From: Byssovorax sp.
GTDB lineage: Bacteria; Myxococcota_A; Polyangia; Polyangiales; Polyangiaceae
Assembly (NCBI GenBank): GCA_025362495.1
Contig: JANYGI010000231.1
Coordinates: 1-64,000 of the forward strand
DNA length: 64,000 nucleotides
Direction of reading: 5' to 3'
Of this stretch, positions 3,496 to 6,020 are shown piece by piece. The position numbers were made by a program, and so were the translations under genes. How positions within the stretch are numbered: position 1 is the stretch's first letter; every line of letters begins with the position of its first letter. A model generated the notes under the pieces. The model searched no databases. It saw nothing but the letters and a program-made list of their open reading frames with translations, and was not told where the DNA came from.

Positions 3496-4434
3496 CTAGA
3501 GACCGATCGCGGTGCGGTACACCCAGCCGACGTTCGAGCCGGATTCGACCTTGTACCAGTCGTTCTGCTTCGCCAGGATCTTCACCTTGGTCCCGCGGAC
3601 GAGGCGCCCGACCTTCTCTTTGCCCTTGGCCTCTTTGCGGAGAGACACCGAGTCGCTGGCGATCACGGCGTTGCCGGTGGCCTCGGTCTCGCTCGTGGTC
3701 GCGCCCGCGGCGGCGTCGCCGTCGCCGGCGTCGGCGCCCCCGGCGGCGTCACCGGGGTGCTTGCCCGGCTTGTAGAAGTTGAGCGCGTACGCCAGCGTGT
3801 AGCGCCGGTACTTGTGCGGGACCTCTTCGAGCGAGGCGTTGCCGAACTCGTGCGCGGCGCACTGGAGGATGCCATTGACGGTGGTCGACGGCATGCCGCT
3901 GACCTTCTTCGCCTTGGCGACCTGGATCTCTTTCTTCTCGAAATTGATCTCGAAGCCGATGGTCATCTTGCCTTCGAGGCCGAGCGCCGAGGGGCACTTG
4001 GACAGCTCTTTCAGGCGCGGGACGGCGATCGGATCGAAGAGCAGCTTCTCGCAGTCCTCGATCTTCTTGTCCTTCTTCTCGAAGCACTTGGTGATCTTGC
4101 CCGCGCCGACGACCACCAGCTCCTGGTTGGCCGGGGCCGCGGCGGGATCGCCGCTCCCCGCAGGCGCCGGGGCGACTGCCGCCGAGCCGGACGGGGCCGG
4201 CGCGCCCGAGGCCGCGGCGCGCGGAGCGGCCGAGCCCGCGGGGGACGCTGTCGCTTCGATCTGCGCCCGGAGATCCCCGGGGACGCTCGGGCCGATGCGG
4301 ACGCCGGCGATCCGCGGCCATGCGATGCCAATCAGGAACCCCGCGAGGCCGATGGCGCCGACGCGCGACCACGCCGGGTGCTCGCTCCCGGGACGCGGAA
4401 TCTCGACTGCAAGGGGGCGGTCTGTTTTGCCCAT
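3496..4434 (-). CDS. SH3-domain membrane-anchored protein
   Basis: A 312-residue protein with one N-terminal membrane helix (about residues 26-44), an Ala/Pro/Ser/Gly-rich linker (65-100), a central cysteine-containing domain (KCFEKKDKKIEDCEKLLFD, LSKCPSALGLEGKM, ILQCAAHEFG), and a C-terminal bacterial SH3 domain of about 60 residues (SVSLRKEAKGKEKVGRL, WYKVESGSNVGWVYRTAIGL). Bacterial SH3 domains often bind cell wall or mediate protein contacts. The central domain resembles the conserved-Cys domains common in myxobacterial AgmX-like proteins, but this is inference. It is transcribed towards the VanW-like gene with 36 bases between. Confidence 0.75.
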   Translation of the reverse strand: MGKTDRPLAVEIPRPGSEHPAWSRVGAIGLAGFLIGIAWPRIAGVRIGPSVPGDLRAQIEATASPAGSAAPRAAASGAPAPSGSAAVAPAPAGSGDPAAAPANQELVVVGAGKITKCFEKKDKKIEDCEKLLFDPIAVPRLKELSKCPSALGLEGKMTIGFEINFEKKEIQVAKAKKVSGMPSTTVNGILQCAAHEFGNASLEEVPHKYRRYTLAYALNFYKPGKHPGDAAGGADAGDGDAAAGATTSETEATGNAVIASDSVSLRKEAKGKEKVGRLVRGTKVKILAKQNDWYKVESGSNVGWVYRTAIGL

Positions 4435-4583: not shown

Positions 4584-4590
4584 GGAGGTG
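4584..4590 (+). promoter_or_regulatory. Strong ribosome-binding site of the metallothionein gene
   Basis: GGAGGTG lies 5 bases before the ATG at 4596. It is among the best Shine-Dalgarno matches in the window and is the main non-homology support that this short ORF is translated. Confidence 0.65.
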
Positions 4591-4595
4591 ATTTC

Positions 4596-4763
4596 ATGGC
4601 TCCTGCGAATCGATGTGCCCACCCGGGCTGCCAGTGTACCGTCCCCGACGACCGAGCGGCCCGGGGCAACACCTACTGTTCCGACTATTGCGAGCGTCAC
4701 GGCTCCGATCAAGCGCACAAGCCGCACGAGTGCGGATGCGGCCACGCGGCCTGCACGGCCTGA
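4596..4763 (+). CDS. Metallothionein-like Cys-rich small protein
   Basis: A 55-residue ORF with a strong GGAGGTG ribosome-binding site 5 bases before its ATG. It has eight cysteines at residues 7, 12, 14, 28, 32, 46, 48 and 53, plus several histidines. Spacing parallels cyanobacterial SmtA: an N-terminal CxxxxCxC pair cluster, a central TYCSDYCERHG (compare YYCSEAC in SmtA), and a C-terminal CGCGHAACTA (compare GCGHTGCNC). Such proteins bind Zn or Cd in a thiolate/imidazole cluster in the cytosol. The terminal Cys of SmtA is absent here while an extra CxC is gained. No SmtB-type repressor gene is adjacent. Confidence 0.85.
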   Translation: MAPANRCAHPGCQCTVPDDRAARGNTYCSDYCERHGSDQAHKPHECGCGHAACTA

Positions 4764-4849: not shown

Positions 4850-5512
4850 GTGCTCCCTTTCCTGATCCTCCTGCAGGTGAGCGGGGTCGCGCCTCCGTCG
4901 GCGCCGATACCGCCTCTCCGCGCCGACTTCCACGTCGACGAGGAGCTCACCTATTCAGTCCGCCCTCCGCCTCCGCCGCCGCGGCCACGCGACCTCCCGG
5001 CGGGGTTCGGCCGCGTGCAGATCGGGCTCGGTCCACCGGGGTTTTCACCCGAGACGAGCCTGCTTCGACTCGAAGGGTACGGCGGAGCCAAGCTGTGGGT
5101 CGAGGTGGACGGCGGGTACATGATCGGCCCGCTCGGTCACCACCTCGGGGGCGCCGTCTGGGGTGGAGTCGGGCGCTGGTTCAGCCCCGGGGGCGGCTCG
5201 ACGCCGGCGTTCACCGAATTCGAGTATTTCGCCGGCGTCGAGGCGCCGATTCGCTTCGGCACGCGCACCCTCGGCGTCCTCGCCGCCCCGCGGATCGGCG
5301 TCGCCAATGGCAGCTTCGATCTCGGCGGCACCAGCCTGTCCCGCCCGGCGCTCGTAGGCGGAGGGCAGGTGAGCGCGATCTCGTCGCGCTACCATCTCAG
5401 CCTCTCCGCCAGCTACCTGACGGCGCGAGTCCCCACGCTCGGTCCGATCGCGCCGACTCACGATCTCGGTGGCCTGTTCTTCTCGCTGGGAGCGATCTTC
5501 GATGATGGCTGA
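4850..5512 (+). CDS. Secreted, barrel-like outer-membrane protein (hypothetical)
   Basis: The frame is open from 4613, but a GTG at 4850 preceded by AAGGGAAGCAG gives a signal-peptide-like start (VLPFLILLQVSGVAPPSA), so a 220-residue exported product is preferred. After a Pro-rich segment (PPPPPPRPRDLP) the sequence is built of alternating short strands ending in aromatic or hydrophobic residues (GGAKLWVEVDGGYMIG, FTEFEYFAGVEAPIRFG, YHLSLSASYLTARV), typical of an outer-membrane beta barrel. No family is recognised. Its 3' end overlaps the following lipoprotein gene. Confidence 0.65.
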   Translation: MLPFLILLQVSGVAPPSAPIPPLRADFHVDEELTYSVRPPPPPPRPRDLPAGFGRVQIGLGPPGFSPETSLLRLEGYGGAKLWVEVDGGYMIGPLGHHLGGAVWGGVGRWFSPGGGSTPAFTEFEYFAGVEAPIRFGTRTLGVLAAPRIGVANGSFDLGGTSLSRPALVGGGQVSAISSRYHLSLSASYLTARVPTLGPIAPTHDLGGLFFSLGAIFDDG

Positions 5513-6020
5513 CGCCCGGACAGGGTATCTCGCGCTCGTGGTCGTCGCGGTCGGCCTCGCGGGCTGCGCCGGGCCGGAGAGCGCGCGGGCGATCGACCGC
5601 ATTTGCAAGACGATCGTGACCGGCGGGCCGGCCTGCGAGCTCGACGGCGCGGGCCTCCAGACGCCCGGGCCCACCGACGATTCGGTCGGCTTCACGCTCG
5701 ACGACGCGCGACTCGTCGTTCACCTCGCCGCGGTCCCGGAGGTGCGTGGAGCAGGCCTCTTCGATATTTCGCTCCTCACCGGCGCGAGGCAACCCGACAT
5801 GCAGCTCGACACGGCGCTCACCTGGGGCTCGTGCGGCGCGCGCTGCCCGACGGATCCGTCGGCCACCGTCCGGACGCTGCCGGACGAGCTTGGCTGGGTG
5901 ACCGTGGCCTCGGCACTGCACCGGAGCGCCGCCGACGCGAATGTGCCTTACGACGCCAAGGTGGTCTTCACCGGATTCGACGCCTTCGTCGTCGATCTGC
6001 GCGTGACGCCGACCCCGTGA
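5502..6020 (+). CDS. Putative lipoprotein
   Basis: A 172-residue protein beginning at the ATG at 5502 (an adjacent ATG at 5505 is equivalent). It overlaps the end of the preceding gene by 11 bases. The N-terminus is a lipoprotein signal with lipobox VGLAGC near residue 23. Four further cysteines follow (RICKTIV, PACELDG, GSCGARCP), likely disulfides in the periplasm. No homology is recognised. Coupling to the barrel-like gene suggests the two act together in the outer envelope. Confidence 0.65.
   Translation: MMADARTGYLALVVVAVGLAGCAGPESARAIDRICKTIVTGGPACELDGAGLQTPGPTDDSVGFTLDDARLVVHLAAVPEVRGAGLFDISLLTGARQPDMQLDTALTWGSCGARCPTDPSATVRTLPDELGWVTVASALHRSAADANVPYDAKVVFTGFDAFVVDLRVTPTP

Follow-up and report, generated by a model that had tools for sequence, protein, structure and literature searches.

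Background

Metallothioneins were for a long time considered rare in bacteria, and functional studies cover few of them (PMC7387436). SmtA contains a Zn4Cys9His2 cluster (PMC10119931) and the Pseudomonas fluorescens protein PflQ2 MT a Zn3Cys9His or Cd4Cys9His cluster (PMC7387436). Bacterial metallothioneins bind 3–4 Zn(II) very tightly via a GATA-type fold; in SmtA the zinc-finger fold forms upon filling of site A, which is also the last site to lose its metal (PMC10612145). Blindauer et al. 2002, as cited in PMC10119931 and PMC3668242, has the expression "SmtA-like zinc fingers" in its title.

Here we describe a small Cys-rich protein encoded in a 64,000-nucleotide stretch of a Byssovorax sp. 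contig (JANYGI010000231.1, positions 1 to 64,000; hereafter the window). It resembles the SmtA/BmtA proteins (PF02069; SmtA, PDB 1JJD; PflQ2 MT, 6GV6/6GV7) in its size, its N-terminal Cx4CxC frame, its long loop to YCSxxC and its C-terminal CGHx2C. However, it has CxHxxCxC and CxCGHxxC where SmtA/BmtA have CxCxxCxC and CGHxxCxC, it contains eight instead of nine Cys, and its gene has no SmtB neighbour.

Results

Identification of the gene

The features of the locus are listed in Table 1. Translation of the open reading frame yields MAPANRCAHPGCQCTVPDDRAARGNTYCSDYCERHGSDQAHKPHECGCGHAACTA, with Cys at positions 7, 12, 14, 28, 32, 46, 48 and 53 (spacing Cx4CxC / Cx3C / CxCx4C) and His at positions 9, 35, 41, 44 and 50. 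The length, the eight Cys with this spacing and the interspersed His are identical to those described in the initial annotation, and the strong ribosome-binding site that it reported was found as well (here read as GGAGGTGAT).

A leave-one-out profile was built from 43 relatives (see below), excluding the window protein. Among 1054 six-frame segments of the window, the ORF scored 42.4 bits (E = 2.8e-12) with this profile, and the runner-up 10.8 bits. Shuffling the window protein 5000 times with the Cys positions fixed gave at most 23.8 bits, and full shuffles gave at most 17.1 bits, clearly indicating that the gene is real and a member of the group of proteins described below. In addition, six-frame reading of 19.2 Mb of window sequence shuffled in codon blocks gave no instance of the eight-Cys motif. 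The G + C content by codon position was 0.64/0.64/0.75, a weaker signature than that of the neighbouring genes (GC3 0.83–0.95), so that composition alone would be insufficient to call the gene.

Table 1. Features of the metallothionein-like gene and its surroundings (positions in the window)
Feature	Position	Strand	Basis or remark
Eight-Cys metallothionein-like ORF	4596..4763	+	55 aa, ATG to TGA; translation and leave-one-out family HMM
Shine-Dalgarno sequence	4584..4592	+	GGAGG-to-ATG distance 7 nt; direct sequence reading
N-terminal block C7-A-H9-P-G-C12-Q-C14	4614..4637	+	Alignments; H9 at SmtA Cys11 position
C14–C28 loop, 13 residues	4638..4676	+	Gap counts, alignments
Zinc-knuckle block C28-S-D-Y-C32	4677..4691	+	Cx3C in 44/44 group sequences
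C-terminal block C46-G-C48-G-H50-A-A-C53	4731..4754	+	Group hallmark; CxCx4C 44/44, His 44/44
Bacterial SH3-domain protein, divergent neighbour	3496..4434	-	Pfam SH3_3, E = 1.3e-9; context only
Downstream neighbour ORF	4853..5512	+	No Pfam/NCBIfam match; open frame, start codon not set; context only

A group of eight-Cys proteins

A search of the host's phylum with the single window protein returned mostly chance matches, which were rejected; two (L050 and L055) were real and share the eight-Cys layout. The alignment of these two with the window protein retrieved relatives from Rhodanobacter, Dokdonella, an Acidobacteriaceae bacterium and a Deltaproteobacteria-labelled MAG, the protein of the latter being identical to that of L055; since L055 lies in the host's phylum, this agrees with the myxobacterial setting given in the initial annotation. 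With an eight-sequence profile, matches were obtained in 40 of the 150 sampled genomes (27%) of the family of the Acidobacteriaceae bacterium and at 2–3 places in several Rhodanobacteraceae genomes. In the host's phylum, 379 genomes were searched with the same profile and 8 gave a match; on reading of the sequences, 5 of these were real, the window's own included. There was no match in the sampled genomes of the class of Rhodanobacter apart from the Rhodanobacter centre. No orthologue was found in the 59 other genomes listed for the host's own bacterial family, where two weak matches lacked the motif, and the plasmid and phage collections yielded no relatives of the group. Conservation in related genomes, on which the initial annotation had made its reading depend, was found in distant phyla (Acidobacteriota, Rhodanobacteraceae) and in a few genomes of the host's phylum, but not in the host's own bacterial family.

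The proteins share the pattern Cx4CxC / Cx3C / CxCGHx2C, which the window ORF fits. All eight Cys were kept in 44 of 44 group sequences, and the spacings were exact in 43. The pattern used to gather these sequences presupposes the Cys layout, but all 29 loci retrieved by profile in the Acidobacteriota family search also satisfied it. A His at the position of H9 was present in 42 of the 44 sequences, and a second one, two residues after the seventh Cys, in every sequence. The group is coherent and fairly widely distributed, and the window protein is one of its members. Neither in Pfam nor in NCBIfam was a model of the group found, and no description of it turned up in the open-access literature searched, motif-letter searches included (subscription literature and RefSeq names were outside the scope).

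Some members in Dokdonella (L087, at about 1279–1668, and L089) lie behind an in-frame N-terminal segment containing ...AHESHALDEALQETFPTSDPVSPF... The L087 protein has no Pfam or NCBIfam match, and a short-chain dehydrogenase is encoded near it.

Comparison with known metallothioneins and zinc-knuckle proteins

The 43 relatives were compared by hhalign with six canonical bacterial metallothioneins: SmtA, PflQ2 MT, L007 (an SmtA-type protein from another family of the host's order) and three proteins from Acaryochloris, Nostoc and Methylobacterium plasmids. The match had a probability of 97.0% (E = 1.3e-10). A profile built solely from the canonical proteins also detected the window ORF among the window's six frames (E = 1.4e-4). 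The direct match of the window protein to the canonical profile (18.1–21.1 bits) is borderline by itself, since shuffles that kept the Cys reached up to 20.1 bits. In the alignment, CAHPxCxC of the group is placed on CACEPCLC of SmtA, with His replacing Cys11, and YCSxxC on YCSEAC, whereas the C-terminal CxC lies behind CGHxxC in SmtA and in front of it in the group. Judged by this profile–profile comparison, the eight-Cys group is homologous to SmtA/BmtA. The loss of the last Cys and gain of an internal CxC noted in the initial annotation describe the C-terminus well (CGHxxCxC to CxCGHxxC), but omit the change of Cys11 to His (H9 in the window protein).

The gap between C14 and C28 (the third and fourth Cys) comprises 13 residues in the window protein, compared with 15 in SmtA and 14 in L007 (both taken from the alignment of the group with the canonical proteins) and 7–8 in the other group members. 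With this near-canonical loop, the window protein looks like an intermediate between the canonical and eight-Cys lineages. L007 shares with it the CAHxGCxC start, YCSxxC and eight Cys, but ends in the canonical CGHxxCxC and scores 37 bits with PF02069, above the cut-off. The L007 gene, at 1501–1632, encodes MDTCAHEGCHCDV...CGHDGCTC, in which His already occupies the place of SmtA Cys11; judged by its motifs, it is possibly a link between the two lineages. A tree of 48 sequences had too few columns to decide whether the window protein is such an intermediate, where its gene originated or whether it was transferred.

The window protein matched Pfam PF02069 (Metallothio_Pro) with 16.9 bits (E = 0.0073), far below the curated cut-off of 33 bits, and so fails formal membership, as do most of its relatives. 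The assignment to Metallothio_Pro made in the initial annotation is therefore not upheld; of its SmtA/BmtA reading, the homology stands and the Pfam membership does not. Weak PF02069 matches (E ≤ 0.5) were present in 66 of the 184 genomes of the host's order, and many of them fell on zinc knuckles in other proteins or on chance frames. Because such matches are common in the order, the Pfam match alone proves little, and it was rejected as sole evidence for a metallothionein. Decisive for the assignment is instead the separate eight-Cys group, of which the initial annotation was unaware. Weak matches were also given by a recurrent Cys-rich protein of about 80 aa in the host's order (L014, L019 and L034; CxxCxNxYDKxF...FDxFECAI...CxHCxCR..GHG...CCAxCA), probably a zinc protein.

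NCBIfam (up to E = 1) and PHROGs gave no match to the window protein. The copper metallothionein MymT is likewise a small Cys-rich bacterial protein, but the window protein was unmatched by its model (NCBIfam NF052418, cut-off 80 bits), with which one relative scored 11.5 bits. The SmtA-like zinc fingers and YCSxxC zinc-knuckle proteins share the zinc-knuckle segment with the window protein; the examples found (L009, L036 and L077–L079) lack its first CxC and its C-terminal CxCGHxxC.

The AlphaFold2 model of the window protein was mediocre (pLDDT 76). Its only match in the PDB was 6gv6, the P. fluorescens metallothionein, and this was weak (E = 2.3, TM 0.43; VIA Z 2.1 over 39 residues), although its direction agrees with a metallothionein. 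The model of the relative L066 had no PDB match.

Genomic context

The ten neighbouring ORFs scanned comprise an ECF sigma factor/RskA pair, VanW, the SH3 protein, two ORFs without assignment, a HAD hydrolase, a polyprenyl synthase, a LOG-type protein and a LuxR-type regulator. An ArsR/SmtB-like gene or metal transporter was not among them, in agreement with the initial annotation, which had noted that no SmtB-like repressor is adjacent. In this the locus differs from the cyanobacterial smt locus with its divergent SmtB repressor; the absence has a precedent in the Pseudomonas metallothioneins, which likewise lack an SmtB-type regulator (PMC7387436). No Rfam RNA family, sigma-70-type promoter or convincing operator (by inverted-repeat scan) was found around the gene. 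The downstream neighbour in Table 1 is adjacent to a further ORF on the same strand (5505–6020), also without Pfam or NCBIfam match, which has a lipoprotein-like start (LAGCAG).

No recurrent metal-related gene was found next to group members, and no common gene neighbourhood outside Rhodanobacteraceae and three Acidobacteriota loci. In Rhodanobacteraceae, the group genes lie near genes for DUF2383 and a short-chain dehydrogenase, the same SDR-type dehydrogenase being present at four loci, which hints at a general-stress setting. At two Rhodanobacter loci, L065 (1773–1985 and 4989–5171) and L068 (2164–2379 and 4986–5171), a pair of paralogous eight-Cys genes is separated by about 3 kb, and the intervening segment contains a DUF2383 gene.

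Discussion

The product of the window gene is probably a small protein of the metallothionein type, presumably cytosolic, which would bind Zn(II) and Cd(II) as divalent d10 metals and buffer zinc. The metal binding, its stoichiometry, the physiological role and the cytosolic location are inferred here. The conserved residues, eight Cys and two His, would serve as the ligands. C7, C12, C28 and C32, which align with site A of SmtA (Cys9, 14, 32 and 36), would form the counterpart of its GATA-like zinc-finger site. C14, C46, C48, C53, H9 and H50 would make up the rest of a compact cluster and could hold one or two further metals, so that about 3 metals (range 2–4) may be bound in total. Such a protein could act in zinc buffering or storage and in protection against Zn/Cd or thiol stress.

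The main alternative is a structural zinc protein, with two separate ZnCys4/ZnCys3His sites in a fold that binds nucleic acids or a partner and takes no part in metal storage or detoxification. SmtA and PflQ2 MT each have one Cys more than the window protein, which makes a structural protein with two zincs possible, and its eight Cys can be split equally into two sites of four. Zinc fingers often contain the YCSxxC knuckle, SmtA-like zinc fingers have already been named as a class, and most genes of the group stand alone, without metal-resistance neighbours. However, the profile homology to cluster-forming metallothioneins spans nearly the whole length, the extra His residues are conserved, and no conserved stretch beyond the Cys/His framework that could serve as a partner surface is apparent in the alignments. 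We consider this alternative rather unlikely.

Considerably less probable is a thiol protein of the stress response, whose release of metal upon oxidation would outweigh detoxification. The two Rhodanobacter group genes that flank the DUF2383-bearing segment, the SDR-type dehydrogenase recurring at four Rhodanobacteraceae loci and the 2–3 copies in several genomes would fit it, but this context is missing from the window and from the Acidobacteriota loci, and is in any case compatible with a metallothionein. A chance or non-coding ORF is hardly credible: the codon-position G + C signature is weaker than in the neighbours and no orthologue was found in the genomes sampled from the host's bacterial family, but an independently built family profile recognises the frame at the E-value given above, its ribosome-binding site is strong, and shuffled sequence of 19.2 Mb is free of the motif.

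Conclusions

The 55-aa ORF is a real gene, and its product is probably of the metallothionein type. More tentatively, and here we are nearly evenly divided, the eight-Cys group may represent a second, so far unrecognised lineage of bacterial metallothioneins. Such a lineage would be frequent in Acidobacteriota of soils and would also occur in Rhodanobacteraceae and the host's phylum. Its cluster would be rearranged, with the C-terminal CxC ahead of CGH and one Cys changed to His, possibly with another metal number or preference, and the window protein would preserve an intermediate state. A family model of the group would expose many more members in soil bacteria that are missed by PF02069 and NCBIfam. 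With its rearranged ligand order, the group would provide a natural experiment on how the placement of ligands sets the number and selectivity of the bound metals in bacterial metallothioneins with a single domain.
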